This document shows, in pieces, positions 1 through 62,620 of a DNA stretch of 64,000 nucleotides. A model generated the notes under the pieces. That model worked only from the letters and a program-made list of their open reading frames with translations. It searched no databases and was not told the DNA's origin. Each line of letters opens with the position of its first letter. The stretch's first letter is position 1. The DNA comes from Sabellastarte sp. h YS-2021 (Eukaryota; Annelida; Polychaeta; Sabellida; Sabellidae): positions 48,473,028 to 48,537,027 of the forward strand of contig OZ024936.1 in NCBI GenBank assembly GCA_964017235.1, read 5' to 3'. The position numbers and the translations under genes are program-made.

Positions 1-474
1 TTTTCATCCAAACGCTGAGGATAAGTACTCCTCGGACACTGGATTTAGCCACGCCAAGTAATCCTCCCTTCTAGTGGCAGCACAAGGATGTCCAAGATGG
101 CGGCATGAAAAAACAACAATGGAAAATCTTTAAAAGTCTATCAGATATACTGAGTTGTAACTATTTAAAGAATTTAATGTCAAATATCTATTTTTATGTC
201 AGAATCGAAGTATTGCTCATATTTATGTTACTCTTTCAACATTATAGCTGCATATTTTGATATTTTATGACGTCACAATTTATGCAAATGAATGTAAATA
301 TCTTCCGAAGGTGCTCCTAGATGTTTGGAACGTGGTTATACTGCACATGCAAGAAATATTTGTCCTAGGACACCTTGGATCTCCATCCAAACTCGTCAAT
401 TGTGACTATGCAAAATGTGACAGAACCCAAGAAGTGATAAAATCACTACTACTTGGCGAATAGGGATTTCCCTC
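1..474. other. Intron or upstream sequence, nothing recognised
   Basis: AT-rich, no supported exon. The exon preceding 3363 must end in phase 0 before a GT donor; no matching open, conserved segment is visible here. Confidence 0.4.
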
Positions 475-545
475 ATAGCTCACCTGGTAGAGTCTGGGCC
501 TCACGAGTGAGAGGTTGTGGGTTCGAGTCCCCTGGAAACATTATC
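475..545 (+). repeat. tRNA-derived SINE head
   Basis: Contains a box-A-like TAGCTCACCTGGTAGAG and a box-B-like GGTTCGAGTCC at pol III promoter spacing, but the arms do not close into a full tRNA cloverleaf. Most likely the head of a tRNA-derived SINE. Confidence 0.6.
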
Positions 546-804
546 TTGTGACGCAAGCCAGTGTAGCCGATTAATATTACAAATCATCAGGACAAGTGTA
601 TGAGGCAACTCATTGACCGAAAGGTTTATTAAGTCTGACAAACAAACACTTGGCTCTTATATATGGTTGTGGATTCTGATTGAACTCATAATAATATGTG
701 GAAAATACTTGGGTCTATCCCAAACTGATCATAGCTGTTACGAGTGACATAAAACAATCTTTCACTTTGTGCAGAGAACATAGTTGCCTGAAGACTAAGG
801 TGGC

Positions 805-1060
805 CAGTCCTTAATAAAAGGTTCATAACCATAAAATCTTGTCTGGGAATATTTTTGGCCCCATTTTGAAAAACAAGATGGCCGCCACGGGCGTTTTTCG
901 ACTTTCAGCAAGGAGTTTTGTTTGCCCTCTAGAACAAAGGGTGTTATAGGTAGAGATCTCAAATTCGCAGGATATGTTCATCATTACAAAATCTTGACTG
1001 GGAATATTTTTGGCCTCATTTTGAAAAACAAGATGGCCGCCACGGGCGTTTCTTTTTAGT
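805..1060 (+). repeat. Diverged tandem repeat of the 42.3-kb Helitron-like family
   Basis: Two ~160-bp units, each with the phrases TTTTTGGCC, CATTTTGAAAAACAAGATGG and CCGCCACGGGCG. The same units occur at 42340-42600 inside the element 42218-43640, so this is a truncated relative. Weaker traces lie near 2160-2410. Confidence 0.65.
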
Positions 1061-1432
1061 TACATACTCTTCCTCCATGATACTTATTTTGTTTTTTAAT
1101 GTTCGGCTAGTTAAGTACATATGTGAAAAAGTGCCAACTATATAAAAGTAAAAAAATTTGAAAAATTTTTGCAAGTCACATGATCAATGAATATTGAAAC
1201 CTCGAAGGGTAAAACCTCTTGAAATTTATTTTCCCAATATGGGTTTTCCTTTTCTTGCACCCACAACCCTGAACTTTGACCTAGTATACCATGCGCATGC
1301 GACTTTTGGTTACTTACTCCCTTTGAGTTTTAAAGCATTCAGAAAATTATTTATGAAGTTGACATATTGTTGGAATTTTTTAAACATACCATTGGGGCTA
1401 TTTTATCATTCTCTAGTGATCATCATCTTGTA

Positions 1433-1656
1433 GAATAAGAAATCTAAAATTCGCCACATATCTGAAATTCGCCACATGTGAAAATACTAATAAAATAAAT
1501 GAATTGTGGTGAGATTTGTTGACTGTATAGTAAATTAAGCTTTTTGAACTGAAAAATACCAATTTTTGGACAAAAACATCATTTTCTTCATAAAATTAAC
1601 TAAGGTTTTAGAGGTGGCGAATTTTAGATTCCCGGCGAATTTTAGATTTCTTACTC
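1433..1656 (+). mobile_element. TA-flanked MITE, copy 1
   Basis: Non-coding ~225-bp element with inverted ends: GAATAAGAAATCTAAAATTC at the left and the complement of GAGTAAGAAATCTAAAATTC at the right, flanked by TA. Each arm also holds a second ATTCGCCA/TGGCGAAT motif. TA flanks suggest Tc1/mariner-type mobilisation. Other copies: 18123, 19786, 27505, 28387 and 30052. Confidence 0.82.
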
Positions 1657-3362
1657 TAACAATAAAATAATAGCAATGTGTTGTGACAGTCGTTGATAAT
1701 TCTGTTTTGTTATTTATTGTTTAAAATTTGTGTAAAAAGAGAGCATCTTGTGTCAGTTTTCTGTGTTGTAACTTGTAGCAAAGTTATCTATAATTTATAA
1801 AGATATGAGAAGTTTCCTTCCAGTTTTAGCCAATAATAATATGTACTGTCCGTGCCATATGTTGAATATTTAATAAGTAAATCATATAAATCTTTTAAGA
1901 TTTTATTTACATGTCCATATGTATAATTGAAAAAGAAATGATAATTTTTGAGGTTTGAGTATAAGTAATCACAGGTTTTGTGTGAAAATATTGGACCATT
2001 TTAGATAGACCAGTAATTATCTCCCACCAGCCAAAAACTTGGGTCAGGAGATTATAAAACGTCTTCCATGCTTATGTGTGTGCATGCCCATGTGATTCCA
2101 TTTGTCATGTTTTTACAGAAACCTTTATATCTCATTCATGTATGAAGTATCTTCAGCATGTCTGTAAAAATATTTTGACCTCATTTTGAAAATGAAAATA
2201 GCTGATTGTACGAAAATCATTAAGATGTTCTGAAGCATGAAATATTGCAGCTAGCTTCATCAGATTTGCACAATATATAATAATATTATATGACTAGGAA
2301 AGCTTGTCTTGAGAGTAATTTTTGCCTTGTTTTAAAAACAAAATGTGTCCTTGGGAGCTTGGTTGTGAAAGCAACATTTTGTGGCATCATTTTAAAAAAT
2401 AATATGGCCGTCATATTTTATGAATGAGTAATTGCTGTAAATGTTACCGTTCAGTATGGTTATGTTACCCCTGTTTCAATGTTGCACTACTTCCACTTTT
2501 ACTTAATACCTGATGGGAGATACTCACTACAGCAATAGACTTGTTTTGGTTTGAAATTTTCCGTAGTTTAAGGTTGGCCTCACTTGTACATTAATGGGTT
2601 GGGTTACATGATTAGTTAGGGTAGACATATAGATATCATTTCATATACAGTTCTACAAAGGAGCAGTTGAGTGCCCATAAAACTAAAGTTAAATTAAAAT
2701 GGTAATATTGGCTATAGTAAAGTTTGTGTGGGTGGTCCATATTTGCAATTTGGGAAGATCTCGAGTGTCTTCTGTTTCACTTGATAATCATCAGCTACTA
2801 CAATATATTATATTGTCTCTCATTAGGTGAGGTTTTTTATCACAACGAAACATGACAAAACAGTAAAATGTACGAATAGTTTTGTATATTGGGTAGTTTC
2901 ATATAACATTCCTCTTTTTTAAACAAAATAATAAGTTTTGAATACATTCACAACTATTTCAATGCAAAGATATCATTACTTGAAACCCCCATTGTTTTTA
3001 TGGAGAGGAAAAATGTGCATACCAAATCACGCAAATACCAGTGGGGTTTTATTCAATGGGTCTTTTGAGCACATCTATTGATTCCACCTTTGCATTTCTG
3101 CTCCTTAAATTGGATAACATTTATCCTTTTGGGACGCTTCAGTTTTGTCAGCCAAAAGATTTTTCTAGTTAATAATGTGATCTAATGTATAGGTGAGACC
3201 AGGCTACAAAGAATGATCAAAAATATGTTTGAATGAACCTGTAAATATTTGGTTTTCAACGATAAATTAATGATATGCTTGAATTGATAAGATCATAGCT
3301 TTAAAAATTAATCAATTATTTGGTCGATCCTTTATTATCTGCAATTTGACACTTTCCGGCAG
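1657..3362. other. Intron upstream of cassette A
   Basis: No gene seen. AT-rich, with faint old copies of the 805-1060 repeat near 2160-2410. The pyrimidine tract and acceptor of cassette A close it at 3361-3362. Confidence 0.5.
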
Positions 3363-3501
3363 GTGTTTAGCCGCAACCCCAAGTTTAAGGGCGCCTGTCT
3401 GGGTCACCTGTTCACACACCAGCCCTTTGACGGAGGAGTTCTTGGACTGGCCTATATTGCAGCGCCCAGGGACTATTCTGTGGGAGGTGTATGTACACAA
3501 G
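3363..3501 (+). CDS. ADAM17: ADAM17 catalytic-domain exon, alternative version A
   Basis: 139-nt exon after a ...TTTCCGGCAG acceptor and before a GTACAT donor. It encodes 46 codons plus one base, starting VFSRNPKF and ending GGVCTQ, with the central piece [12 protein letters not shown] typical of the ADAM17 edge strand before the zinc helix. It ends in phase 1, so it joins the 19308 exon to give Q-AYYKDGY. A homologous exon of exactly the same length and phase lies 9 kb downstream (12527). Exon identity is firm; alternative use with the 12527 exon is inferred. Confidence 0.9.
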
Positions 3502-4074
3502 GTACATTGTGTGTGTGATAGGGTTTTTTTTTCTCTTGTTGTATTCCTACACACTACTCATCAATTTGCAGTAGAATCTCTATTGTTATTCGAACATACC
3601 GGATGAATGAGAATTTGAGTGAGAAAATTTAAAGAAACGCCTAGGTATATTAGTGTTGAATGAGAGGAAATAATAAATTTGATCTAACTTCAGTTTTCAT
3701 CAGTTTATTCACTCAAAAGAAATATACAAAATATGTAAGTTAAAAATTAATATAAAGACAAAGATATACAGTGGAAACTGTGTTAATGAAATGAAGTATT
3801 TTGGATAAATGACAATTGGATAATAGAGGTTTTACGGTAAATATGTCTGCTTTAACATGACAGTTGAATTCTGTAGAGTTGAAACTCAGGTCACCACGAT
3901 ATATCATTACATACTAACACTGTAAAAGACATTCCAGATGATGGTACAACTATTAATATAATGGACGTCTTATTTCTCCAGTCCATATGTTTTGAAATCC
4001 ATCATATGAGGTGTGAGTAGATTGTACAATTCCATTCCATACCATAATATAACCAAGTGAGTTTCTGCTACCTC

Positions 4075-4465
4075 ATATGTACTAGTGCTGGTATTGTTTA
4101 TCGATATTGAAATATTTATCGATCCATGCTAAATATACTGATATCGATAATGTAGGGTACAATATCAATATCGGAACATACTACTAAATAGACACAATTA
4201 AGCTGTTTTCCATGTAAATAAAATATAAAATTTGAGAAATATATTGGTTTTCCTATCGTTTTTTGTCAAATTTCACTTACCGCTAAACCGGAAATGCCAT
4301 ATTTGTTTATGTTTCAGGCAACTTCTAAAACTCGTGAAAGCATTTGGAAGATCTTTCTCAGAAAACACCCGTTACCCGATATTTCAATATCGATCGATAC
4401 AGAAGCAAAAATATGGTTTGATATCGATATACATATTATAATTCGATACCAACACTAATATGTAC
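4075..4465. mobile_element. hAT-like MITE with 8-bp target duplication
   Basis: The element spans 4083-4457. Ends are TAGTGCTGGTATTG and CGATACCAACACTA (inverted, 12 of 14 matching). It is flanked by the identical 8-mer ATATGTAC at 4075-4082 and 4458-4465, the hallmark of hAT transposition. Interior rich in ATCGAT; no coding capacity. Confidence 0.8.
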
Positions 4466-5014
4466 ATATTCAAATTCATGTTTGAGTGTCATTAAACTAC
4501 ACATTTATTGCTCAAGTAGCAATATGTAAATCATATGACATCCAATAGTACACATGAAGTTACAGTTTTATTATGTCAGCTGACTTGTCAGTCAGCTGAC
4601 ATTATGTCGTCACTCTGCGGCGTGGGCGTCCGCGTACGCGTCCGCGTACGCGTCCGCGTGAACAACTTCTCCTCCAAAACTACAAGGCCTAGAGACGTGC
4701 TGTTTTTTTTAAAAGATACCTTATCTATCGAGGATGAAAAATTGTTCAAGGCATGCAAATCTGTCTGTTCGTCTGTTTGCTAGAGACATTACAAGGGGGG
4801 TACCCCCACCAAAAGTGTGAAAATTTCAACACTTAATCACAATTTTCTCAGTGACTATTGCAGGGATTTCTCTCATATCTTGCATATATGTACAAGGCCA
4901 GAGGTAGATTCTCTTGTGTGAGTATGAGACCTGGATCTGTCTTACTTTTTTTTTAATAAATTTTTTTAATAATTTTTAATGCATTAAAATTCATGAAATC
5001 ATGCACAAAATCAT

Positions 5015-7665
5015 TTATAACTTGAAAAGTGTTGCATTTAGAGCATTTTGTTAAAATATGTTATTCAGCTACTTTTTTCATAGCTACAATATGGTGAGTA
5101 AGTTGGGTGCCTGTCTCAATAGCTAAGTGAGTAATAGCTACTTTTGGGCTTTTCAGTAACTTCCATTATGAGTAAAATCACTTGTAACTTAAAAACTATT
5201 GCATTTAGAGAATTTCGTATAAATATGTTATTCAGCTACTTTTGGGTCAGCTATAACATAGTAAAATTTCAGACCTGTAGCTCATGGCATAGCTGAGTAA
5301 TAGCTACTTTTAGGTTATCACTGTTGAGTAAATCGCTTATAACTTGGAAACTATTGCATTTACAGTATTTTGTTTCAATATGTTATTCACCTATTTTGGG
5401 ATCAGCTATAACATAGTGAAGTTTCAGATCTGTGGCTCATTGCATAGCTGAGTAATAGCTACTTTGAAGTTCTCACTATTGAGTAAATCAGTTGTAATTG
5501 GAAAACTATTGCATTTAGAGAATTTCGTATAAATATGTTATTCAGCTACTTTTGGGTCAGCTATAACATAGTAAAATTTCAGACCTGTAGCTCATGGCAT
5601 AGCTGAGTAATAGCTACTTTTAGGTCATCACTATTGAGTAAATCAGTTGTAACTTGAAAACTATTGCATTTACAGTATTTTGCTTAAATATGTTGTTCAC
5701 CTACTTTTGGGTCAGCTATAACATAGTAAAATTTCAGACCTGTAGCTCATTGCATAGCTGAGTAATAACTACTTTGAGGTTCTCACTATTGAGTAAATCA
5801 GTTGTAATTGCAAAACTATTGCATTTAGAGAATTTAGTATAAATATGTTATTCAGCTACTTTTGGGTCAGCTATAACATAGTAAAATTTCAGACCTGTAG
5901 CTCATGGCATAGCTGAGTAATAGCTACTTTTAGGTCATCACTATTGAGTAAATCAGTTGGAACTTGAAAACTATTGCATGTACAGTATTTTGCTTAAATA
6001 TGTTGTTCACCTACTTTTGGGTCAGCTATAACATAGTAAAATTTCAGACCTGTAGCTCATGGCATAGCTGAGTAATAGCTACTTTGAGGTTATCACTGTT
6101 GAGTAAATCGCTTATAACTTGGAAATTATTGCATTTAGAGTATTTTGTTTCAATATGTTATTCACCTATTTTGGGGTCAGCTATAACATAGTGAAGTTCC
6201 AGACCTGTGACTCATTGCATAGCTGAGTAATAGCTACTTTGAAGTTCTCAATGTTGAGTAAATCACTTATAATTTGAAAACTATTGCATTTAGAGAATTT
6301 AGTATAAATATGTTATTCGGCTACTTTTGGGTCAGCTATAACATAGTAAAATTTCAGACCTGTAGCTCATGGCATAGCTGAGTAATAGCTACTTTTAGGT
6401 TATCACTGTTGAGTAAATCACTTATAACTTGGAAACTATTGCATTTAGAGTATTTTGTTTCAATATGTTATTCACCTATTTTGGGGTCAGCTATAACATA
6501 GTGAAGTTCCAGACCTGTGGCTCATTGCATAGCTGAGTAATAGCTACTTTTAGGTTATCACTGTTGAGTAAATCGCTTATAACTTGGAAATTATTGCATT
6601 TAGAGTATTTTGTTTCAATATGTTATTCACCTATTTTGGGGTCAGCTATAACATAGTGAAGTTCCAGACCTGTGACTCATTGCATAGCTGAGTAATAGCT
6701 ACTTTGAAGTTCTCAATGTTGAGTAAATCACTTATAATTTGAAAACTATTGCATTTAGAGAATTTAGTATAAATATGTTATTCAGCTACTTTTGGGTCAG
6801 CTATAACATAGTAAAATTTCAGACCTGTAGCTCATGGCATAGCTGAGTAATAGCTACTTTTAGGTTATCACTGTTGAGTAAATCACTTATAACTTGGAAA
6901 CTATTGCATTTAGAGTATTTTGTTTCAATATGTTATTCACCTATTTTGGGGTCAGCTATAACATAGTGAAGTTCCAGACCTGTGGCTCATTGCATAGCTG
7001 AGTAATAGCTACTTTGAAGTTCTCACTGTTGAGTAAATCAGTTGTAATTGGAAAACTATTGCCTTTACAGAAATTTGTGCAAATATGTTATTCAGCTACT
7101 TTTGGGTCAGCTATAACATAGTGAAATTACAGACCTGTAGCTCATGGCACAACTGAGCAATAGCTATTCTCAGGCACTGACTGTTGAGTAAATCGGCTAT
7201 AACTTGAAAAATATTGCATTTGGAGTATTTTGTTAAAATATATTGTTCACCTACTTTTGGGTTAGCTATAACATAGTGAAATTACAGACCTATAGCTCAT
7301 GGCATAGCGGAGCAATAGCTATTTTCAGGTTCTCACTATTGAGTAAATCAGTTGTAACTTGAAAACTATTGCATTTACAGTATTTTGCTTAAATATGTTG
7401 TTCACCTACTTTTAGGTCAGCTATAACAGAGCAAAAATTCAGACTTGTAGCTCATTGCATAGCTGAGTAATAGTTACTTTGAGGTTCTCACTCGTGAGTA
7501 AATCAGTTGTAACTTGAAAACTATTACATTTAGAGTATTTTGTTAAATATGTTATTCACAGACGTTTTGGTCAGCTATAACATAGTGAAATTGCAGACCT
7601 CTATGTCATGGCATAGCTGAGCAATAGCTTCTTTCAGGTTCTCACTGTTGAGTAAATCATTGTAT
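5015..7665 (+). repeat. 155-bp tandem array, about 17 units
   Basis: Units of ~155 bp with recurring phrases CTATTGCATTTAGAG, GGGTCAGCTATAACATAGT, GCATAGCTGAGTAATAGCTA and GTTGAGTAAATC. Units alternate between subtypes, indicating local multi-unit duplication. The homologous array at 23450-25630 has about 14 units. Confidence 0.9.
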
Positions 7666-8480
7666 CCAACCTGTAGGAAATCATGGGCTGGGAATCTGTT
7701 AATATGGTCCGATTTGACCTTGGAACCCTCCTTCAAGGTCAAATGAGGATAGTCAAACATAAAAGTGCTTATAACTCGCTTATTATTGGTCCTAGAGGTT
7801 TGGAATGAAAACCAACCTATAGAAAATCATGAGCTGGGAATTTTTTGGTGTGGTCGGATTTCACCTTGGACCCCTCCTTCAAGGTCAAATGAGGATAGCC
7901 AAACTTAAAAGTGCTTATAACTCACTTATTATTGGTCCTAGAGGTTTGGAATGGAAAACCAACCTATAGAAAATCATGGGCTGGGAATCTTTTGGTGTGG
8001 TCGGATTTCACCTTAGACCCCTCCTTCCAAGTCAAACGAAGATAGCCAAACTTAAAGTGCTTATAACTCGCGTATTATTGGTCTTGGAGGTTTGGGATGG
8101 TAAACCAACATATAGGAAATCATGGGCTGGGATTCTTTTGGTGTGGTCAGATTTGACCTGGGACCCCTCCTTCAAGGTCAATTGAGGATAGCCAAACTTA
8201 CAATTGCTTAGAACTCGCTTATTATTGGTCCTACAGGTTTGGGATGGTAAACAAGCTACAGGAAATCATGGGCTGGGAATTTTTTTGTGTGGTCGGATTT
8301 GACCTTGGACCCCTCCGTCAAGGTCAAACAAGGATAGCCAAACTTAAAAAGTGCCTATGACTCACTTATTATTGGTCCGAGAGGTTTGGGATGGTAAACC
8401 ATCCTAAATTCTTTGGCTGGGAATCTTTTGGTATGGTCAGATTTGACCTTTGGACCCCTTCTTCATGGTCGAACGAGGAT
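7666..8480 (+). repeat. 146-bp tandem array, about 6 units
   Basis: Monomer starts spaced 146, 147, 146 and 146 bp (7681, 7827, 7974, 8120, 8266). Key phrases are CTTATTATTGGTCC, AAATCATGGGCTGGGAA and CTCCTTCAAGGTCAAA. The same monomer appears at 25640-26450, 42603-43560 and as a single degenerate unit at 30540-30662. Confidence 0.9.
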
Positions 8481-8763
8481 ATTGCATTTATAGTATTTCT
8501 CTAAATATTTTTAACCTACTTTTTACACTTAAACAATTACCTTGTTACTTTATTTCATAATACCATTTGCAGGGCACAACTTTTTTGTCCTTTTCTTCTG
8601 TCAGCTTCGGAATATCTTTCGAACATGCTGTTCAGTTACCATTTACTGTATTTCTGTACAGCCCTTTCCCTGATAATTATGCTTTCCTCTCATTATCACC
8701 ATCACAAATCAAAAACATTCAGTCAGCTGACACAGTGCCCGTTCACGGGCACTCTCCTCTTGT

Positions 8764-11700
8764 ATTTGTTTCTGGTGAAAATGGAAATCTTGGTTCACCA
8801 CATTCAACTCAAATGGATTCAACTGTGGTGGTATTTGTTTTGAAGAGGGCTCCCTGTTAATATTTTTGTCAGACTTGTAACTGGAGATAAATTTTCAAAA
8901 TTTGTGCAACAAAATGTAAGAAGACAATAATTTGTTGTTTAAAACTTGACTGTTTTTTCTTGGATTTTGAGTAATGGCATTTAGCCTTGACCTTTATCTC
9001 TATTTTCACTTACTTTGGTAGGATTATTCATTCGAAGGGGAAGTAGAGAGCCCTGATTTTGAAGCAATTTCGCCTGATGTGTTTACCACTGGGGTGTTAC
9101 TCTTACATAACAGTATTACGCACGAATTTTCATGTTTGTAGTTTTATGTTTATACGATATAAAACCTGTATGTTAATAAAGGCAGGTGTTGTTTTTTTCT
9201 TTCCAAAATTATGACTATACAAAAAAGTATAGTCTTTTTTGAGATATTTGGATACCTTTATAGGACATAGTCTAGTGGATATGGAGCCAAAGTTTGCTTT
9301 TGCTCTGCTTGTTTTATTTGCATACAATGTATTTTGGGATTGGAATTAAAACACCTGCCAAACATGTACTTGTTTTGTTATTTATGAGTTAGCCTCAACT
9401 GGTATACACATAGTAATAAAAAATAAGAATAATTCTTATTTTACATGTCTAATTTGTAACATAGCTACCTGTACTTGCAAAGAAATTAAAATGTTAGCAA
9501 ATATCTCTTTTAATTTTCCGCCACTATCTCTGCTGTGTTTCAACTACTTAATTTTTAGTCATACTTCTTAACTTTTCTGTCACATAACCTTATTAATCTA
9601 CAATTTAACCTAGGTCTCTCTATTGTTAAAAAGCAGCATAATTTACAATCACCAAATATTTGAATGTTTGGCTTGGACTCTTTGCTTTCATTTACTATAG
9701 AAAGGAACAGTCTATTCTCTATGGTAAAATCTTTCCAAAACACATCTGTCTCTTTCCTTATTTAAGCCAGGCTGTATTAATGAAAGGTCTTAATGTTTGC
9801 CTCATCTAAGGCATAGCCCATTCATAAATCCAAGATTTTTGTCTTGGCAAAGAATGGTCATAAATATACATTCACAAAGATCTTAGCTGCTACAAAAAAT
9901 AATAAACTTAAGACTATATGTAAAACTTAGAGAAGATTAAAATCAGTAATGAATGGTACTAAGACAAAGACATATGATACAGCTTAGACTGTCATTTACG
10001 ACAAATGTCTCAGATTTGAGACACAGATAAGACCTTTTCTAAATAAGGGATCAGTTGATATTAAATTCTTGAAAAAACTTCCTATGGTTTAGTGAAAATT
10101 AGTTTATAAACTACTTAACCTTTGCTATTAATTTGATTACATTCTGGAGAAAATTATTTTGTAGTATTCAGAAATAATCACCGATGCTTAGGAAAATTTC
10201 TTAATTAAGTTATAGTGTATTAGTTCTGCACTATAAATGATAATTTTTTTTGAGAAAAAAAATCTGAATCTTCATAACAAGGTTATTTACATATAACCAA
10301 AATCTCTGTTTAGGCTTTTATGACAAAGTTACATAATCTCACTTAACCATTAATTTCTCTATGGTTCTGGGTTTAAACCCAGGTCAAGAAAACATATGAT
10401 AAACATGTGATCTGCCCTGATATGATGTTAGCTGTTGAAAGTGATATAAAACCCCATCTATGGTCTTTGTGCATTGATTTAAACCATATGTTTTTTTACA
10501 GTATTAACCAATTGTCCACCAGTAAAAGTTATACCACCAAGATGTCTCACTAAATTTTTTGTGGCACCTGACTATATCAGGTTTCTGATAATATTTTATA
10601 TAATTTAAAATGGAACCTGTGACAAATAATAGATATGGAATATTGATAGTAAGTCTGATACAATTAAATTTTAATGAATGTAAAATTATATGATTCCACA
10701 AGGATTGATGTACTACTGTATCAAATAAAAATTAACTGATAAATTTCAGAGATATGTATGCTAACATTTTATGTTTAATATTTGGTTAATAATTTGTTGC
10801 TAGGTATTGTGAAGGGTTGCCTCTGATGTATGGTTTCTTTCAGTTTTATTAGTTAGAGGTTTTCAATGTTTCTGTGTTACATTTCAGCTTATCTTTCAGA
10901 AGATGTAAATTTTTATCAATTTATCCTTAAGTACCATTTGTTCGATTTACAGCTTTAATGATATATTTAAGAAGTTTGTTGCTGGTATTAAGTTATCAGT
11001 TGCGACTTGATTTGAATGATTTGGACCCCAAAATATATAACTGACAAGACTTGAATAAAATAAAGTACATAAGTGTCTCCCTTGTCTGAATTAACAAGGC
11101 TTTCAGCTTTTCAAATTCTACTCTGTAAACAATAGAAGCATATTCCACTCAAAACTCTTGTGGTGTGAGTCCAATGGTTTGTACACTTTGCTGTATATAA
11201 TGGTGTTTATTTTAAGCATATGTATAAAATGTCTACATTTGTATATACATTATACAATGTATGGATTATTTAATTGTTGTATTACATTGAGCATAAAATA
11301 TCTTGAAAACAAACACTAACATTGGCAACTGATTTAATTTATTAATCATACATGTACTGACTTTCTGTGGAGGCAAAATTGAGCAAGTAACCACAATGAC
11401 TGTGTGCAAAAATTGTTGACCAAAATTGGTGAATTTGACCATATTTCTGTATTCCTAGGAATTGCAATCATTATAATGCAATTTGTCAGAATATTAAGTA
11501 CTTTGGTTAAACGTAAAATATTTTCAGAGCTCTAACCATTTCGGAAAATGTAGCAGTGCTGAATTCCTACTCTTTTTTCCCTGAAGCATGTACTATTTCA
11601 TAACTTTCACAATTTGGCAGTTTTAGGTTGTAGAATGAAGATGGATCATCAGTGGTGACACAAATATTTAATGTAAAATATAATAACTTTATCAGCAAAA

Positions 11701-12526
11701 CTATTTCTGTGCTTGCTTTTTGATAGGCTATGACATACACATGTACTCAGTATAAAAGACACCGAGAATGTATGCAGACCGACTTTGATCTTTGTTGCCC
11801 TTAGTGTCGAGATGCGGAAGATGGTAGTGATAGTATAAAGTATTTCATGTTCTGACTTGATGAATTAGTCTTGGCAGCTATTTGACTTGTATTCATACAT
11901 TTTATTGATTTTCAGCAGGAAAGATGCGCCTTTATGTAAGGTACTCCTCTGTCCTTACCAAAGGAGACTTTGTGAAATCATGGTCTCGTGGTCAACAAGT
12001 TTGGCATTAAATTTGGACAATGACGGGATGTCTGAGTCATCGAAATTGTTTCTAGTATGCTGATAAACGTAGCACGACCTAACAAACTAGGTACTCGAAA
12101 AAATTAATATTAAAATATTTTATATTTCCACAAAAAAACATGGGTGAAACCTAAGCACAAAATATTTTCTTTCTCAAATTTGGTACCTCTAGGTGGTTCA
12201 CACTAAAATGCAAATACCTAGATTCAATTCGGGTCATGTGATCTAGACATATGACTTTGTTCTGTATCCCTAGTCCCTCGGATAGCAATTTAGGCATCTA
12301 ATCACAGTGTGTTACTTCAGTCAGTGTATCACTTTCAAAATGCTGCGGACTTGTCCTAATGTGACCCTTGCCAATTAACGGGACCTAAAAACCCTGACCT
12401 TGACATTCGTCCAGAGTCACACCCCTGTTTAATATGAGATGTAATGGGGACCGGTCCTAAAATTACCTTGTCTGCTGTATAGGAAGTAAAAACTGCAACT
12501 TAAACCCAATGTGTGTATATTTCTAG
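8764..12526. other. Long intron segment between cassettes A and B
   Basis: AT-rich, with scattered stops in all frames. No exon, RNA gene or structured repeat recognised. It separates the Helentron-like element from cassette B. Confidence 0.5.
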
Positions 12527-12665
12527 GTATTCAGCAGATCGGGTCGTCATGACGCCTTTTGTTTGTCCCACCTGTTTACCTCTAAGAACTTTGCCGACGG
12601 TTCTCTGGGTCTTTCCTATGTGGCCTCCCCGCTGTCACATAACCCTGGGGGTCTCTGTTCACCAG
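12527..12665 (+). CDS. ADAM17: ADAM17 catalytic-domain exon, alternative version B
   Basis: 139-nt exon after a TTTCTAG acceptor and before a GTACTC donor. It encodes 46 codons plus one base, starting VFSRSGRH and ending GGLCSP, with GSLGLSYVASP in place of version A's [11 protein letters not shown]. It is open throughout, keeps the two cysteines and the HLFT and GLGL-type motifs, and shares 21 of 46 residues with version A. Entry phase 0 and exit phase 1 equal those of version A. Splicing A to B would shift the frame, so the two can only be alternatives. There are no signs of decay. Confidence 0.85.
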
Positions 12666-13931
12666 GTACTCACCATTATAGGACAAATATACATAAACTG
12701 GTTTTTATAAGCTTGCCAAATATACATATACCATTTAATAGGCTTGGTCAGTAGTGTAGCAATCGTGCTTAGCAATTAAGACTGCTCGGTATACATAATA
12801 CTGTCTTTATATTTGAAAGGTGAGATAGCTTACACAAAAATACATTTACCCCTTGATAAACATATCAAAAATACTTGTGCTACTCTCTTCATAAGCATGT
12901 AGGGGCTTGTACTGGATTGTTGCGTTGGTATTATTAGCCATGCTTGTTCTCATTTGGCATGTTAGTTTAAGGCATTCAGAAAAGTAAGGATTCAGTGTTT
13001 TATCACATTTTACATTATTTTTGGCATGATTTATATTGCATGTTGTATTAAGGATTGAATTTCTGTACAAATTAAATATCACACCTGTTTTACAATTTAA
13101 TTACCTGAGTCATGGATTGATATCTGTTAGTAGCAGATGTAGATATGGGATAGTGAAAGGATAGTGTCTTCCTTTTCTGAACTCTCAAAAAATTATATTT
13201 TATTCCCTTTTCCCTCTCTCTTTGCCTGGTTTATCACCTTTATTTAGTGCATAAAAATCAGTCCAGTAGGTCTTTTGAAGAAATCTTTACATCTGCATCT
13301 TTATACCTCTCTTTGTTTACTTTTAGTAAGTCTAAAATTCTAATTGTCTAGTTCTGTTAATAGAATATCAGTGATCTGTTTTTCATATCACAAAATTTAT
13401 TTATTTGGAATGTATGAATAAAAATTGTATTTATGAACCTTAACAATATCTTGCAGTGCCATTTATTTCACTGTTGCCAAACAAAATGAAATTACTGTAA
13501 GTTGTTCTTTGGCCCTTTAAAACTGGTAATGATCTTCGGAAATAATTACACCGCTGGTGACATAAGTGGTTTACCTTAATTTGACCTTGAGCTGTGAAAT
13601 ATTCCCAGTAGGTCAATATATTCAAAGCTTTTTACTACAGAGAAGCTTTACTGTACGTGACCTATGGGTAATTATTTGTTTGAAAAATGTAACAGATGAC
13701 CACAACTTGATGGTTCATTATCATGTCATTGAACTTTTAAGAAAAGTTTTCATCTGCTTTAAGTAGTACTACTCCCTTTTTAATGGGAAAGACTACAGTC
13801 AATGCCAAATTTCAACAAGAAATGATACATGTATCAAAAATTGGGGAAACAAACTGAAGTTATTGGACATCCTTAGTGTTGTATGTATAATGCATGAACA
13901 TGTAGATTGTAGATATGAGTTTGAAATGTAG
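12666..13931. other. Intron downstream of cassette B
   Basis: AT-rich, short spurious frames only, no recognised feature before the hAT-like element. Confidence 0.45.
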
Positions 13932-14406
13932 TTTTAAGGTAGGGATGGGTCGGTATGAAAAATGTGTACATCTGGAGGCCACCAATGCAAAACCGTTCCT
14001 AATTCGGGACTCCATGTTTTAGTTTACCCCAATCAAACATGGATGTTTCCTGTCAATGAAATCGCAATAAAAATCTCAAAATACACAAAATATGGGATGA
14101 AAGTGTGTAATATCTTCAGATTTCTGGTTTATGTCCAATATTTTTAAGTTTTCCTTCCATTATGTGTGTTGACAAGTGAGATTGAGGTCATAAAGTGTTG
14201 TCACATATTTACCACAAAATTGCTATAAAAGTTCGAAAGTGTACAAAAATATAGAATATAATCATGCAAATTTCTTCAGATTTAGGGTATCTTCCCAATA
14301 TTTGAAGTTCTCCTTCCATTATATGTGCTGATAAGTGAAGTGGTATTTCATGAAAATGCTCTTGATACCGAGACACTGGGCTTACCGACCCATCCCTATT
14401 TTAAAG
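13932..14406. mobile_element. hAT-like MITE with perfect 16-bp inverted ends
   Basis: The element is 13940-14398. Termini TAGGGATGGGTCGGTA and its exact complement; flanks TTTTAAGG and TTTTAAAG form an 8-bp target duplication with one mismatch. Two related internal halves each contain a TTCCTTCCATTAT-type or TCTCCTTCCATTAT-type phrase. No coding capacity. Confidence 0.82.
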
Positions 14407-14836
14407 TAAAAGCATGTTCCCTGCTGTCCTGCCATTTTAATGAAATGTGATAATATAGTTCACTCAGTACAAGTAGAATCAGTATAGGTCAAAGTAAGGC
14501 AAAAGTGGAACCAATTGTAAGGTCCAGACATCAGAATAAGCAATATTTTTCTTAGCAATATGTGTGGAGGTTAGGTATCAGTAGAACCACATCCTGTTGA
14601 TATTCGATGTTTTGTTTATACAGAGTCTACTGTATATAGTAGAATGTAACCAAAAGTAGAACCAAATCCTGTGGATACTGAAGGTTCTAGTTCTACTGAA
14701 TCTGTTGTATTTTTTTTTGTCCTGCAAGTTTAACAACAACATCATGACTGCACAAGTACAGCCCAACCTCTCAAGTAACTCACAATTCTCCTAACTGAAA
14801 GGCAAAGGCTCAGACCATTTGTCAACATTCCTAATA

Positions 14837-15396
14837 CCCCTTTCATACTACAGGCAGTAAAAAAAATATAACCCACTGTAACCCGCATTTTGGGAAACGT
14901 CCCTGTCCTTGGATCACCGTCAGATGTCCGTAGACGACCTTGCGAGTCAGTGGCGATCCATCCATTACCTTGCGAGTGCTATGGAAGTTTTAGACTGATT
15001 AAAATTTCTGCCTCTGATTCAGTACCGTGGGCATGCGCAGACGATTTTGAGCATGCGCGTTTGAATTTCTGACAACAGTAACCGAAGGTGTGGTCCACGG
15101 TGTACATAAGGTTGTGATTCGGTCATCTTTCAGTGTATTACGTTGATATAAGGTGAGTCAAAAGTATTGGTCATTTCATCAGACGGCTACCGAAGGTGAG
15201 TTGAGGTTGCTTCATGGTGACAAACGTTTGTAGCACTGTCATTCTACTGTTATTGATGGTTAAAAAACTGTGTACAATCAGTGGCCGTCCACTTGTAGTG
15301 TGAACAACTTGGACGAAATGGGGATGACCTGGTGGGCGGTTCCGCCACCGAGAAAAATTTCTAACCGTGGTACTATCACCTGTAGTGTGAAGGGGG
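14837..15396. mobile_element. MITE with CCCC...GGGG inverted ends
   Basis: 560-bp element. Left end CCCCTTTCATACTACAGG, right end the complement of CCCCCTTCACACTACAGG (16 of 18 match). Its left portion, including GGGAAACGTCCCTGTCCTTG, is repeated inside DIRS element B near 57,740-57,930. No obvious target duplication. Confidence 0.7.
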
Positions 15397-15982
15397 CATA
15401 CGGCTCTTTAGCCTGCCACTCTGGCAGGACCCAGTGACAGAAGACCAACATTTCAAATGGCCAGCAGAGCCACTGTGTATCTGCCTGTACATGGGTTAAA
15501 ACCAACATCCTCTGTGTTCCTAGGCGAGTGTGTAACCCACCAGGCCAAAACATAACTATTTGTTCAACCAAATTTCTGATAAAGTAATAAAAGTATACAG
15601 GTTATGAAACTGAGCTAATTTCGGGCCCATCCTACAAGTGATCCTTTTGTGAATAGAGCCCAGTGTGTGGGGTATCTCAAGAAATATATGTCTTGATGCT
15701 TTAGAATTTATTTCAGTAAGAGCCTGGAATGGTTTGTTATAAATAAATGAATAAAAAATAGGAAGCAAAAAATAGCTGACATCATCATTGCCCCTCCTCG
15801 CCTTCCCATCAAAAAGAAAGAGAAATATAGAAAATTTTAAAAAAAAACCAGTAAATATAAAAAACAATAAATGAAGATAAAAAATAGTGGATGTTGTGTG
15901 TCTTTGTATTTGCTGCAATGTGTGTTAACTTCAGATTAATGTTGTCAACATGAATAATCTTAAAAATCTCATAGAGGAAATA

Positions 15983-16215
15983 GAACGATGAAAGGTAAAA
16001 TTCACCTCAGTATGTGAAATTCACCGCAGTATTTGAATGTCACCACAGTATGTGAAATTCACCACAGTATGTGAAATACACCACTGTATGTGAAATTCAC
16101 CACTTTCCCATGTTGTGGTGAATTTTACATACTGAGGTAAATTTCACATACAGTGGTGAATTATACATACAGTGGTATATTTCACATACTGTGATGAATT
16201 TGGCTTTTCTTGCTC
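15983..16215. mobile_element. TA-flanked MITE built from inverted arrays of a ~22-bp repeat
   Basis: Flanked by TA on both sides. The left arm has tandem units with ATGTGAAATTCACCACAGT; the right arm has the complementary units (ATACTGTGGTGAATTT-like). The whole sequence can fold into one long hairpin. The ends resemble those of the 1433-1656 family (GAACGATGAAA and the complement of GAGCAAGAAAA), suggesting a sister family. Confidence 0.7.
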
Positions 16216-18122
16216 TATGTGTATTTGTCTCTGACCAAAATTTTTCTTGGCAAGCACTTTAAAAAAAAATTTAATATCATTTCTCAAGCCAAATTGTTGT
16301 AAACATCAGTCAGATGAGCTGTAATATTGTTTATTATTAATTCTGACACCAGTCCAGTGTATTTGCGTAATTTTATTTTTTGAAAATTGTATGTTTTTAT
16401 TTCATAAAAATGTTATATACCCTACCATATGAACACACTTGAGTTAGGGATGTCTAGTCCAGTGACTTAAATGTGAGTAGCAAAAACGCTTGTTTAATGT
16501 GTACAACCACCACAAAGAGAATAAACTATTTTTGGCAGTTATGGGCATGGCAAAGTGAATTAGGTCACCAGAGGTCAAAGGGTGGTAAGTATAAAGGTTT
16601 AATTAGGGTTTTTCCCTTATAGGTTAAATTCCATGTAAAGTGTATGTGGTGGTCACCGATGCCTAGCCATCTTTAACCCAAGTGTTTTCATATGTAAGGT
16701 ATATACATTTTTTCTTCATAAAAATGTGTTTAACATTTAAAATATAAACATTTTAATTGTTGTGATGTGACAGAGTGTCATGTGCCTGGTGAACACTGGC
16801 CCCCATATTTCTCTGCCTGATTTCTTCATTCAATTTCTATTATTTTTTCTTTTTTTTATATATTTTTTTTCTAGGGTTGGTATTTTACCAAGCAAAAGTT
16901 ATTTAAAATGAAGTTTTTTTTTACAACTTCATAGTTTGATGCCAACACAAATAATTGTTTTTAATTGTAGAACATTTAGTATGCAACTGGATCATATTTT
17001 CTTTAATCAATTTGGAAATACTAATGTTTTGTAAAATGTGTATGCTTCATGTTAATCTAAATAGTTAAGATATTTTATGAAAACTACCAAGATTATCTTA
17101 TTTTTTCAGATTTCACTTTATTAACTGTGTATGTCATAAATAGACTTGAATGGTTGATAATAAAAGTCTTTTCCGATCTCCGGTTTTGTTAAGTGGTGAC
17201 TGAAAAAGTTTGTTTATACCTGGTACATTAAAGGATGAAATTAAACCCTATATATGTGGCCATCTCTTTACTGCTTCTTCTATATTTTGTGTACGAATCT
17301 ACAGTGCAATTATACCAATATTTTTGTAACTTAACTCTTGATGATTTTTGTGTAGACTTATAAATTGTAAAAATATTTAAAAAATTAAAAAAAAATTACA
17401 AAAAACAACTGATTTTAAGTTTCAACCATTTTTGTTGTTACCTTAGAAACATGGTGATCAATTAATGTGATAGTTTATGTTATTTATATTTAATATTTTA
17501 TAACATATGAGACCCTCTGTTACCTTTCACTATACTTCAAAAATATATTCAAGTAAATTATATCTTAATATCACTCATATGGTATTTCTTCTGTTATCCA
17601 AACAAGAAATAATCCATCATATTGTTTGAATAAAAGAAGTTATGGTGAACTTATTGGTTTCTCAGTGGTTAAACCCTTGAAAGTCACATATCAACAGGAC
17701 CATATAAACAATTCTATACTTACTCAAAAAAGAAACTCGAGTTTTATACGGAATAAATTACCGTATATCTCGGGTTTCTTTTTTGGCTTAGTATATTAAG
17801 GAATTTCAGACAGCAGAGATCATTTCAATGCAGAAACCCTGTGTATAATTGATTACAAAGATTCTTTATCTTTGTCAGCTTTAAATAAAGAATTATAAAA
17901 CATTATTTTTTAAAAGTTTGGTAGGATTACAATAAAGAAAAATAATGATCATAGATAAATAAAGATCTGATTAAAGCTCTGAAGAATAAGCAAGTACCTG
18001 ATAAAGAATAGAGCAATGTCAACTTACACAAGTACAAAAGAATTCTGTTTTCCTGTTTTATATTGGAAACTTTTCAAATGAAGAAACTGGTATCCAAAAA
18101 TTTAACTATGAAAAAGGGAGTA
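16216..18122. other. Intron segment with one strong hairpin
   Basis: AT-rich and non-coding. Contains an isolated hairpin at 17726-17784. Nothing else recognised. Confidence 0.45.
17726..17784. repeat. Near-perfect hairpin
   Basis: Arms of ~24-26 bp: AAAAAAGAAACTCGAG...TATACGG and CCGTATATCTCGGGTTTC..., around a 9-bp AT loop. It may be a tiny palindromic element; no coding role. Confidence 0.6.
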
Positions 18123-18348
18123 GAGTAAGAACCCTAAAGTTTGCCACATATCTGAAATTCACCACATTTGGAAATACTAATAACAATAATGAATGGGGGT
18201 GAGAATTGTTGAATGTATAATAAATCCAGGCTTTTTGAACTAAAATATGTATCGAGGTTAAGGCAGAGCATCATTTTCTGCACAGAATTAACTATGGTTT
18301 TTGAGGTTGCGAATTTTAGATTTCTGGCAAATTTTAGATTTCTTACTC
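18123..18348 (+). mobile_element. TA-flanked MITE, copy 2 (degenerate)
   Basis: Diverged member of the 1433-1656 family. It keeps GAGTAAG at the left, CTTACTC at the right and internal phrases GCCACATATCTGAAATTC and GAATTTTAGATTTC. The right flank has mutated from TA to GA. Confidence 0.7.
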
Positions 18349-18974
18349 GACCAGTAATGGATGAAGATCAAAGTGATAGGAAAAGAGTACTCTGGTATAT
18401 ACATTCTTTGCTTAGTTGATCTTTTATTGCAGTCTAACCTTTTGTAGTAGCTGTTGATCCATATTAACTCAGTAATTTGATAGTAAATGTATATATAAAA
18501 ATATGACAGTACATGTTATTGTAATCAGTAGTAGATAAAAAATACTTCGTCTAATTTATTTTGTCACTTGTAATTACTAACTGTTCATTGTAAGTGTGTT
18601 TTTTGGTGTGTTTTTTTGATTATCTTAACTCAGAAGTATTTAATATGAATTTATAGACACTACATTTAAACTTTGTTCAGTAGTGTGGTATTGTAATGTT
18701 AATATATTTTTAAGCAATTTGTAAGATCCTAAGTATTAAATTTACTCATAACAATGTCTTGTATTTTATGTAACTCTTAACATAATCAAGCAAGGTGACC
18801 AGGGAACATTGCATCAATATTTATCAATCTTTCTTCTTAAATTTTGAAATGATATTAATGTCTAAAATAATGCCAAAGTCTTACTCAAGCAACTTTCTTG
18901 AAAATTTAACTCTTTTTAATCAACATTTTTATTATATAAAAATTTCTTTGTACTTTTAGAATTTTGTTCATGTT

Positions 18975-19200
18975 ACACACAGTTCATGAAATTGCCAGTG
19001 AGGAAACCCCCATTCTGTGTCCTTTTTTTGTGGGAAATTCTTTATGAAGTTGTGATTTTTGAGGCTATGTTGGGCCTCTGCTGTCCCTTTATGCAAAATT
19101 GGCACAAAGTTTGATTATTTTGTCTTACTTTTAGTCTTAAAGGGTGGCAAATTTCACACACTGTGGCAAATTTCATTTGTATTACTGTACAGCAATGGGC
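18975..19200. repeat. Unclassified dispersed repeat
   Basis: Homologous to 41000-41205: shared phrases include ATTGCCAGTGAGGAAA, GATTATTTTGTCTTA and ACTAGCAAATTTC-like ends. Both copies have weak inverted ends around TTTGCCA. Too diverged to place in a family. Confidence 0.4.
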
Positions 19201-19307
19201 TTATTATAGAAGTGACAATTAAATTTGAAAAATCACGATTGTAATGTTCATATGCATTGTGCAATATTTTACAGTACTAATGCATTTGTTTATAACAATG
19301 ATTGTAG

Positions 19308-19418
19308 CTTATTACAAAGATGGTTACCAGCTTTACTTGAACACTGGTTGGAGCAGCTCACTCAACCGTTACAACAGGAAGTTGCTCACACAGGAAGCTC
19401 TATTAGTTACAACACATG
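19308..19418 (+). CDS. ADAM17: ADAM17 catalytic-domain exon leading into the zinc site
   Basis: 111-nt exon with acceptor ATTGTAG and donor GTAAGT. With one base from either upstream cassette it reads AYYKDGYQLYLNTG, then ...LLTQEALLVTTH, ending one base into the glutamate codon of the zinc motif. This matches the ADAM17 stretch before HExGH. It is the common acceptor partner for both 139-nt cassettes. Confidence 0.92.
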
Positions 19419-22129: not shown

Positions 22130-22254
22130 AGTTTGGACACAACTGGGGTAGTGAGCATGACCCGGATACAGACGAGTGTTCACCCAATGCATTTAAAGGC
22201 GGGAAGTACATCATGTATACTTACTCAGTGTCAGGCTATGACACCAATAACAAG
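22130..22254 (+). CDS. ADAM17: ADAM17 zinc-binding exon
   Basis: 125-nt exon with acceptor TTTCAG and donor GTCAGT. Joined to the previous exon it completes [12 protein letters not shown]: three zinc-ligand histidines, the catalytic glutamate and the metzincin glycine. It continues through DECSPN and [19 protein letters not shown], equivalent to the Met-turn region. It ends in phase 0. All catalytic residues of an active protease are present. Confidence 0.95.
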
Positions 22255-25630: not shown

Positions 25631-25639
25631 CAACCTGTA

Positions 25640-26450
25640 GGAAATCATGGGCTGGGAATCTGTTAATATGGTCCGATTTGACCTTGGAACCCTCTTCAAG
25701 GTCAAATGAGGATAGCCAAACATAAAAGTGCTTATAACTCGCTTATTATTGGTCCTAGAGGTTTGGAATGAAAACCAACCTATAGAAAATCATGAGCTGG
25801 GAATTTTTTGGTGTGGTCGGATTTCACCTTGGACCCCTCCTTCAAGGTCAAATGAGGATAGCCAAACTTAAAAGTGCTTATAACTCGCTTATTATTGGTC
25901 CTAGAGGTTTGGAATGGAAAACCAACCTATAGAAAATCATGGGCTGGGAATCTTTTGGTGTGGTCGGATTTCACCTTAGACCCCTCCTTCCAGGTCAAAC
26001 GAAGATAGCCAAACTTAAAGTGTTTATAACTCGCGTATTATTGGTCTTGGAGGTTTGGGATGGTAAACCAACATATAGGAAATCATGGGCTGGGATTCTT
26101 TTGGTGTGGTCAGATTTGACCTGGGACCCCTCCTTCAAGGTCAATTGAGGATAGCCAAACTTACAATTGCTTATAACTCGCTTATTATTGGTCCTATAGG
26201 TTTGGGATGGTAAACAAGCTACAGGAAATCATGGGCTGGGAATTTTTTTTGTGTGGTCGGATTTGACCTTAGACCCCTCCGTCAAGGTCAAACAAGGATA
26301 GCCAAACTTAAAAAGTGCCTATGACTCACTTATTATTGGTCCGAGAGGTTTGGGATGGTAAACCATCCTAAATTCTTTGGCTGGGAATCTTTTGGTATGG
26401 TCAGATTTGACCTTTGGATCCCTTCTTCATGGTCGAACGAGGATATTGCA
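25640..26450 (+). repeat. 146-bp tandem array, about 6 units
   Basis: Same monomer and unit order as 7666-8480, with a handful of substitutions and one-base indels. Confidence 0.9.
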
Positions 26451-28268: not shown

Positions 28269-28338
28269 GTGTTTTCTCCATGTAGTATGAGGTCTATTGG
28301 AACTGTGCTTGCAGCCAAGTCTCACAAGTGTTTCACTG
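28269..28338 (+). CDS. ADAM17: ADAM17 exon, end of the catalytic domain
   Basis: 70-nt exon, acceptor TTTACAG, donor GTAGGT. It encodes VFSPCSMRSIGTVLAAKSHK then CFT, the ADAM17 segment closing the catalytic domain with its conserved cysteines. It begins in phase 0 and ends in phase 1. A TA-flanked MITE starts only ~48 nt beyond the donor. Confidence 0.9.
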
Positions 28339-30301: not shown

Positions 30302-30440
30302 CTCCCATTGAGAAGCTGTGTGGCAATTCCCTGCGGGAGGAGGGGGAAGAGTGTGACCCTGGTCCACTTAGTTCAGACGTGGATGGTGACAATTGTTGCA
30401 GCAGAAACTGTAAATTGAAGCACCCATCATTTCAGTGCAG
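30302..30440 (+). CDS. ADAM17: ADAM17 disintegrin-like exon
   Basis: 139-nt exon, acceptor TTATTAG, donor GTCAGT. It begins APIEKLCGNSLREEGEECDP and continues with a dense cysteine pattern (DNCCSRNC ... FQC). GEECDPG is the ADAM disintegrin hallmark. It ends in phase 2. Its length equals that of the alternative cassettes by coincidence; the sequence is unrelated. A MITE copy ends 26 nt upstream of the acceptor. Confidence 0.94.
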
Positions 30441-30867: not shown

Positions 30868-31032
30868 TGACATGAATGACGAGTGCTGCACCAACTGTAT
30901 CTTCTCAGTACAGGGCACCGTGTGTCACCCCAGTCAGGATGGCTCGTGTGAAGCCACTGCTAATTGTACTGGCTCATCTGCTTCCTGTCCTCCACCACCC
31001 AATAAAAAGGATGGATCTGAATGCATAGGAAA
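30868..31032 (+). CDS. ADAM17: ADAM17 disintegrin / cysteine-rich exon
   Basis: 165-nt exon, acceptor CATTGTAG, donor GTAAGT. It encodes SDMNDECCTNCIFSVQGTVC followed by NCTGSSASCPPPPNKKDGSE, matching the ADAM17 disintegrin-like domain including the CPPPxNxxDG motif. It starts by completing a serine codon and ends in phase 2. Confidence 0.94.
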
Positions 31033-31949: not shown

Positions 31950-32023
31950 AGGTCAGTGTAAAGCTGGTGAATGTATTCCATACTGTGAAAGTCACGACAT
32001 GATCTCCTGTGCCTGTGATCAGG
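31950..32023 (+). CDS. ADAM17: ADAM17 membrane-proximal domain exon 1
   Basis: 74-nt exon, acceptor TTTCTCAG, donor GTAAGA. It reads GQCKAGECIPYC then ESHDMISCACDQ, as in the ADAM17 GKCxxGxCxPFC segment. Entry phase 2 and exit phase 1 fit its neighbours. Confidence 0.92.
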
Positions 32024-33288: not shown

Positions 33289-33422
33289 TTTCCACAGCCT
33301 GTAAGTGGTGTTGTCGTGCACGAATGGATGACATCACAAAACCAGACAAGAACTGCACACCAGTGACGCCGGCTGAAAACCTCCCTAATGGAATGCCTTG
33401 TGTGCAGGGTTACTGCCAGGAT
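33289..33422 (+). CDS. ADAM17: ADAM17 membrane-proximal domain exon 2
   Basis: 134-nt exon, acceptor CATACAG, donor GTAAGA. It encodes CKWCCRARMDD ... NLPNGMPCVQGYCQD, the cysteine-rich membrane-proximal region. It ends in phase 0. A decayed hAT-like MITE ends ~100 nt upstream. Confidence 0.92.
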
Positions 33423-34069: not shown

Positions 34070-34148
34070 GGTGTGTGTGAAAAACAAGTCCAAGACTTGG
34101 TACAGAGGTTCTGGGACATCATTGAGCAGCTAGATCCCAGTAAAATAG
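34070..34148 (+). CDS. ADAM17: ADAM17 CANDIS-like juxtamembrane helix exon
   Basis: 79-nt exon, acceptor ATTTCAG, donor GTGAGT. It encodes GVCEKQVQDLVQRFWDIIEQ then LDPSKI, corresponding to the membrane-proximal amphipathic helix of ADAM17 that contacts membrane and substrates. This segment distinguishes ADAM17 from other ADAMs. Exit phase 1. Confidence 0.93.
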
Positions 34149-34916: not shown

Positions 34917-35005
34917 TGGCCTTCATGAAAGCAAACATTGTGGGGACAGTGATCATCTTGTCCCTGTTTCTATGGATACCTGCCAGCTGTGTGGTCTGCT
35001 ATATT
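34917..35005 (+). CDS. ADAM17: ADAM17 transmembrane exon
   Basis: 89-nt exon, acceptor TTTTTTAG, donor GTGAGT. It encodes FMKANIVGTVIILSLFLWIP and then ASCVVCYI, a single hydrophobic helix preceded by the ADNIVG-like motif of the family. It ends in phase 0. Confidence 0.93.
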
Positions 35006-48779: not shown

Positions 48780-48965
48780 AGCCATCTTATCAGTTGGCTT
48801 TTTTAGAACTCTCACTTTGTGATAGTTTTTTACACAGTTCAAGGAGGAATTTTACTCTGACTCTAGTTTCTATTATCTCACCGTTGTTTATAGACAACTT
48901 TGATATACTTTGCTGTGAGATATTTTGTGTGTGTCTCTTACATTGTGACACTTTATACTACCATC

Positions 48966-57560: not shown

Positions 57561-57736
57561 TGTGAAAGCAGAGGAGATCTCACACAATGAAGAAAGGCAT
57601 TCAACCGGTACCTCACAGAAGAAACCCGGTTGCTATCACCCCTATGCCTCTTCTGCCTAGAAACAGATCAAACACCAACAACAGAGCAAGAAAGGTCATG
57701 ACAATGCCTCAACTTACAAGCAAAAACCGGCCAAGG

Positions 57737-57935: not shown

Positions 57936-57939
57936 GGTT

Positions 57940-62514: not shown

Positions 62515-62620
62515 TGTCCATTGGATAGGGTATTAACTTATAAAAATTTAATTTACTTATTAAATTTGTAATTTTGTGAGTTTTCCGCGTTTCGACTTAG
62601 ATTTCTTTATTGCAGTTAAA

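Follow-up and report, generated by a model that had tools for sequence, protein, structure and literature searches.

The window analyzed here is a 64,000-nucleotide (nt) stretch of DNA from the annelid Sabellastarte sp. h YS-2021 (contig OZ024936.1, positions 48,473,028 to 48,537,027, forward strand) and carries a gene for the protease ADAM17. Two adjacent exons of this gene, A and B, encode different versions of the same 46 residues, and we consider it very probable that they form a functional, tandem-duplicated and mutually exclusive pair within one ADAM17 gene. This attribution is based on architecture, reading frame and conservation, from which we infer the exclusivity of splicing, a regulator of the choice and an effect on specificity. 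Exclusive use of A or B in the RNA of this species would be expected from the architecture, the frame and the exons of relatives, and alternative splicing can probably give a cell either of two forms of ADAM17. The pair and its introns are arranged as follows.

3363..3501, + strand: alternative exon A, 139 nt, entered in phase 0 and left in phase 1
3502..12526, + strand: intron A-B, 9025 nt, containing 155-bp and 146-bp tandem arrays
12527..12665, + strand: alternative exon B, 139 nt, entered in phase 0 and left in phase 1; VFSRSGRHDAFCLSHLFTSKNFADGSLGLSYVASPLSHNPGGLCSP
12666..19307, + strand: intron B-C, 6642 nt

The exon pair and its gene

Exons A and B are each bordered by ag upstream and gt downstream, both start with VFSR, and they agree at 73 of the 139 bases and at 21 of the 46 residues. 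In each exon frames 0 and 1 of the three forward frames are open, with stops in frame 2, and the ADAM17 match lies in frame 0. Exon C (19308-19418) continues in frame from A as well as from B. The exon preceding A, outside the window, terminates in phase 0 (GAG/gtaagt), as A requires, and translation is free of stops through the last three upstream exons followed by A and C, and likewise by B and C. Joint inclusion of A and B results in a stop at nt 24 of B, and skipping of both in a stop at nt 31 of C. The pair thus has the features by which tandem exons are recognized: adjacency, homology, equal length, equal phases, AG/GT borders and no in-frame stop. All of this bears out the first-pass annotation, which had described 139-nt twins of phase 0/1 with VFSR starts, 21/46 identity, AG/GT borders and an in-frame join to 19308, and had argued that an mRNA containing both would be out of frame. 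No further copy of the exon was found in the window or in the 50 kb upstream.

The GC content of exon A (0.55) and exon B (0.53) is coding-like, with AT-rich flanks of 0.31 and 0.37, respectively. Base differences between A and B at codon positions 1, 2 and 3 number 23, 17 and 26, the minimum being at position 2; at such divergence this may be taken as weak evidence. A chance open frame was also considered for A and B, and was rejected on the tblastn matches of a human ADAM17 sequence to the window (E 1.2e-8 for A and 1.5e-6 for B) and on the matches of a hidden Markov model (HMM) of the exon to the open stretches in all six frames of the window. The latter reached 1.1e-25 and 5.6e-23 with a model that had the window exons A and B among its members, and no other match fell below 0.14.

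Downstream of B, nine exons (C to K) all continue in phase, and a probable last coding exon follows.

19308..19418, + strand: exon C, in frame with A or B; ends VTTH, the start of the zinc motif
22130..22254, + strand: exon D, remainder of the zinc-binding motif
28269..28338, + strand: exon E
30302..30440, + strand: exon F, disintegrin
30868..31032, + strand: exon G, disintegrin
31950..32023, + strand: exon H
33289..33422, + strand: exon I, ADAM17 membrane-proximal domain
34070..34148, + strand: exon J
34917..35005, + strand: exon K, probable transmembrane segment
36977..37162, + strand: probable last coding exon, carrying the tail and the stop; low confidence, from an ag acceptor, phase and open frame only

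The zinc motif HExxHxxGxxH is present, split over exons C and D. In a search of solved structures the translation of A-C-D scored 131.9 bits to the best chain, human ADAM17, versus 69 bits to ADAM10, and that of B-C-D 122.9 versus 71.5 bits. Pfam gave 40.5 bits for the ADAM17 membrane-proximal domain PF16698 (cut-off 26.2) and 48.4 bits for the disintegrin domain (cut-off 35.1). These sequence matches identify the gene as ADAM17, and the structure scores well above ADAM10 together with the membrane-proximal domain uphold the name it had been given at first pass.

The 5' part of the gene was read from the same genome assembly (1.786 Gb, 647 contigs). Eight upstream exons lie between C14:48448627 and 48472876 with a single open frame across all eight, and the last of them (C14:48472784-48472876) ends in phase 0, 151 bases short of the window; a signal-peptide exon was not found in the 50 kb of upstream sequence read. 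By tblastn against the window plus these 50 kb (queries P0006 and P0002, two of the related proteins described below; human ADAM17 on the window only), the eight upstream and nine downstream exons were each found once, and the extra single matches, all at E of 0.6 or above, were taken for chance. Only exon A/B is doubled in the stretches read. The lone 5' set lies wholly ahead of A and the lone 3' set wholly behind B, and the parts of P0006 outside the exon A/B region gave no ADAM17 match in introns A-B and B-C at E up to 1. Since the other exons are single and both introns are without a match, B lacks 5' exons of its own, as A lacks 3' exons of its own.

A-like and B-like exons in other species

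Three protein searches yielded 149 distinct proteins (the best 120 of 369, the best 120 of 291, plus 8). The exon was read by an automatic pattern in 144 of them and manually in P0001, P0003 and P0011; P0042 was added manually and P0073 dropped. Because the protein database was clustered at 90%, a second isoform differing only at exon A/B may hide inside a cluster, and the counts of A-like, B-like and alternate exons are lower bounds. Among the proteins listed, A-like exons occur in P0001 (Paralvinella), P0002 (Capitella), P0008 (Tubulanus), P0010 (Lingula), P0004, P0005, P0007, P0009 and P0076, and in partial form in P0011 (Owenia fusiformis). B-like exons were seen in at least three of the 149: the second copy in P0001, the first copy in P0011, and P0006. 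The Paralvinella prediction thus holds an A-like followed by a B-like copy in one protein, and the Owenia prediction a B-like followed by the partial A-like copy, the opposite order to the window and Paralvinella. Both are annelids.

Exon A is identical to Paralvinella copy 1 at 33/46 residues. The closest relative of the window gene among 16 proteins compared is P0006, which matches exons C to K at 223/322 residues (69%), exon B at 34/46 (74%) and exon A at 21/45 (47%). P0006 comprises 763 residues on a contig of 2436 nt, in which B sits directly between the upstream sequence and C. A contig of this size leaves no space for introns, and this suggests indirectly that a relative splices B into its mRNA; the source tag 'lgn' presumably denotes assembled sequencing reads. 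B is thereby found in a coding sequence beyond this species.

The two types were also separated by profiles and trees. In leave-out HMMs the best score of exon A, 90.8 bits, came from the model of the nine other A-like exons, ahead of 80.6 bits from that of the insect alternates; the best score of exon B, 82.6 bits, came from the model of the three other B-like exons, with 59.2 bits as the runner-up. A tree of 32 rows grouped the four B-like copies at 97/88, and one of 31 rows without human, which forms a very long branch, at 92/87; both trees were built on 46 columns with P0005 and near-identical arthropod versions omitted, and the Paralvinella second copy and Owenia first copy are long branches in them. 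Residue numbers here and below are those of human ADAM17. Ser351 is present in 4/4 of the B group, with Ala351 in every other row listed in the profile comparison. Pro361 is likewise present in 4/4 and also in four sponge-like rows (P0142-P0149 are presumably sponge proteins). V347 and I353 occur in 10/10 A-like rows including the window, and Y359 in 8/10. The mutually exclusive pair is most likely old.

At least five of the 149 proteins carry an alternate insect version, so that in insects, as in the window, it is this exon that comes in a second form: P0003 Kerria, P0042 Cryptotermes, P0053 Onthophagus, P0068 Cyamophila and P0106 Nilaparvata. The Onthophagus and Nilaparvata entries are isoform-numbered at NCBI (isoforms X1 and X3). 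In Kerria the main and alternate versions stand within a single prediction, which speaks for one gene holding both. Two Cryptotermes proteins differ at 25/49 columns in the exon, 7/123 before and 4/373 after it; they lie on contigs of different size, so two loci are possible. In length the insect alternates exceed the main insect form by 1 or 3 residues. In common with A they have I353 (4/5) and Y359 (5/5), which hints at kinship with A, and in the tree without human A-like exons and insect alternates come together at 72/89 (unstarred). With the A-like profile, however, the four main arthropod exons tested score 86-92 bits and the alternates 67-78 bits, and window exon A is nearer than B to the human and main insect exons; B may therefore be a spiralian novelty. 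In approximately unbiased (AU) tests the p values were 0.050 for 'A+B one clade', 0.075 for 'A + arthropod main', 0.102 for 'insect pair one clade', 0.135 for 'B + arthropod main' and 0.163 for 'B + insect alternate', so that none of the groupings is clearly rejected, the lowest p-AU being 0.050. On these 46 residues a single early duplication would fit, and so would two separate events. We tentatively entertain, as the less likely course, that the pair predates the arthropod/spiralian split and was an ancestral protostome switch, whose A-type (V347, I353, often Y359) would survive as the alternate version kept by termite, beetle and hemipterans.

Alternative explanations and the splice choice

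A second, diverged ADAM17-like gene lies on the same sequence, 6.1 Mb away, at C14 54.597-54.630 Mb (loci L005 and L014-L019, C14:54593000-54652999). Its exon of 136 nt scores 68.9 bits with the A-like and 62.8 bits with the B-like profile, and no second exon version was present within the 60 kb read. The existence of this paralog is what would favor the view that A and B derive from two copies of the gene that the assembly collapsed, broke or joined wrongly. We hold this to be very improbable, since the paralog has its own single, different exon, one 5' set precedes A and one 3' set follows B with no ADAM17-like match between, the DNA of A and B is 53% alike and hence far too different for haplotypes, and the side-by-side layout recurs in the Paralvinella prediction. 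The single 5' and 3' exon sets also dispose of the separate assembled paralog that the first-pass annotation had named as a possible refutation. It is somewhat less improbable, yet still unlikely, that one copy is dead or dying, leaving a single exon in actual use while the other is skipped or yields decay-prone RNA. The donors of both exons are nonstandard at +5, the paralog and most relatives listed show a single version, and B is less conserved than exons C-D, all of which would agree with such a loss. A dead copy differing at 25/46 residues should, however, have lost its frame. Both A and B keep the correct frame open, have AG/GT borders and a GC content like that of coding sequence, and preserve the cysteines and the rim, and each resembles its own counterpart elsewhere (A 33/46 in Paralvinella copy 1, B 34/46 in P0006). 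Exon B, open, 74% identical to P0006 and grouping with the B-like copies, does not look decayed, as had been argued from the letters at first pass. Between these two in probability, and improbable in our view, is that the exons are real and non-exclusive, joint inclusion or skipping deliberately making noncoding, decay-prone RNA that lowers ADAM17 output. Long introns permit splicing in of both exons, the frame logic renders both joint states unproductive, and A-B-type joined reads occur in 18/20 human frame-shifting clusters, among 28 genes with Drosophila orthologs, according to the main text of PMC5740500. Alone, this explanation gives no account of two diverged coding versions kept in different phyla.

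Several points weigh against a functional, mutually exclusive pair. The pairs in relatives are automatic predictions, that of Owenia with reversed order and an incomplete A part. A search of related molluscs for both exons had been proposed at first pass; among the 149 relatives listed no protein is named as molluscan, and the pair was seen in predicted proteins of two annelids, Paralvinella and Owenia. Exon B is identical to the Paralvinella second copy at just 26/46 residues, and it evolves faster than its catalytic neighbors, as P0006 matches C-D at 67/79 (85%) against 74% for B. The paralog 6.1 Mb away has a single exon version. In the structure model of P0006 the pLDDT (predicted local distance difference test) is under 50 at 336-357, too weak for use.

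The donors of A and B (gtacat and gtactc) are both without G at +5, a base found in 15/17 other donors (9/9 downstream, 6/8 upstream), which gives a probability of 6/171 for two of two by chance in a comparison that was chosen after the data had been seen and with borders set by eye. Weak donors would fit regulated exons. Simple steric exclusion is unlikely across introns of such length (3.5 kb ahead of exon A, then 9.0 kb and 6.6 kb), so that the choice would have to depend on regulated splice sites together with frame-dependent loss of incorrect RNAs. A scan for RNA pairing over positions 1-19400 of the window, in this one genome, returned 22 inverted-repeat pairs, none singled out. In the mechanism we propose, the exon before A would be joined to one member of the pair, and that member to C. 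RNAs with both exons or neither would shift frame, reach an early stop and probably be removed by nonsense-mediated decay; because of the frame shift and early stop they would yield no full enzyme. Either choice would give a complete ADAM17, the difference being confined to 46 residues.

Other sequence of the gene, window and genome was recorded alongside. Intron A-B holds at 5169-8481 a composite array, 16.1 copies of a 155-bp unit and after them 5.6 copies of a 146-bp unit, and the same composite recurs at 23598-26445 in another intron of the ADAM17 gene (13.1 and 5.6 copies); more arrays of 144-147 bp lie at 42607-43549. Three consecutive retroelement-like stretches were recognized by eye from open frames (48894-54705, 55951-61952 and 62564-63779). 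They include a frame of 866 residues at 51543-54143 with a reverse transcriptase (RVT_1 4.2e-23) and a weak RNase H match, and a frame of 475 residues at 60355 with no match in Pfam. A tandem duplication of 360 bp (48988-49707, 100% matches) is either very recent or an assembly artifact. Elsewhere in the genome, L003 (C2:96355946-96359224) is an ADAM-like open frame of 718 residues that matches human ADAM17 57-641 unbroken and is perhaps a retrocopy that stayed open; L004 (C479:8701-11985) is a partial relative of L003 on a small contig; and L008 (C3) is, by motif, a candidate ADAM10.

The active-site rim

Exon A/B spans approximately human residues 321 to 367, including Cys333, Gly346-Leu350 and Cys365, and by sequence alignment encodes the strand that forms one rim, or wall, of the active-site cleft. 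Inhibitors bond Gly346 (via water), Leu348 and Gly349 and pack on Thr347 and Leu350, residues 346-350 lining the ADAM17 active site (PMC12491190). The rim motif LGL and the two cysteines that align with human positions 333 and 365 are retained in both exons, which confirms that the family residues are kept in A and B, as the first-pass annotation had stated. The exons differ at position 347 (Val in A, Ser in B), at position 351 (Ala in A, Ser in B) and in the loop 357-361 (RDYSV for A, LSHNP for B). The zinc-binding histidines are encoded by the common exons C and D, so catalysis should be the same and the cleft wall altered. The choice between A and B is thus likely to change the substrates or bonds cut, or inhibitor binding, with catalysis kept; by exchanging the segment that holds the rim strand and two conserved cysteines, the pair would tune what ADAM17 cuts.

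Mutually exclusive tandem exons are well known. In Dscam, myosin heavy chain and Cacophony they are likewise adjacent, homologous and equal in length and phase, and tandem duplicated exon substitution is described as keeping core residues, shifting frame on joint inclusion and often being of great age (PMC9741552, PMC5740500). The ADAM17 pair differs from the Dscam-type cases in that the swapped piece is the wall of a protease active site and that it is known here from sequence alone. For coq-2, alternative splicing of an enzyme is reported to control which product animals make, with mutually exclusive exons and molluscs both mentioned (PMC7434440); enzyme and pathway differ from those of ADAM17, for which the effect of the switch is a proposal only. 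Among the matches listed, open-licence papers covered by title and start of abstract, none describes alternative exons at the ADAM17 site, which agrees with the earlier statement that no description of such a switch was known. In the main texts, 'Tace' and 'ADAM' are absent from PMC3303723, 'ADAM' is absent from PMC9741552, and in PMC5740500 it occurs solely as an author name. As far as these open papers show, exons of this kind at the active-site rim of ADAM17 are undescribed, a status limited by the NCBI insect isoform entries that already carry the alternate version.

ADAM17 is a main vertebrate sheddase for TNF, EGFR ligands and other proteins, and how a single enzyme picks from so many substrates is a standing question. 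A splice switch that replaces the rim alone would provide two matched enzymes for comparison and would tie protease specificity to tissue-specific splicing, and the insect counterparts bring an ADAM17 exon switch within range of standard genetics. If the switch was ancestral to protostomes, splicing would have governed substrate choice by ADAM17 for more than half a billion years, and the pair would have been lost from vertebrates or never present in them. If the duplications were instead independent, their convergence would mark this strand as the site where evolution tunes ADAM17.

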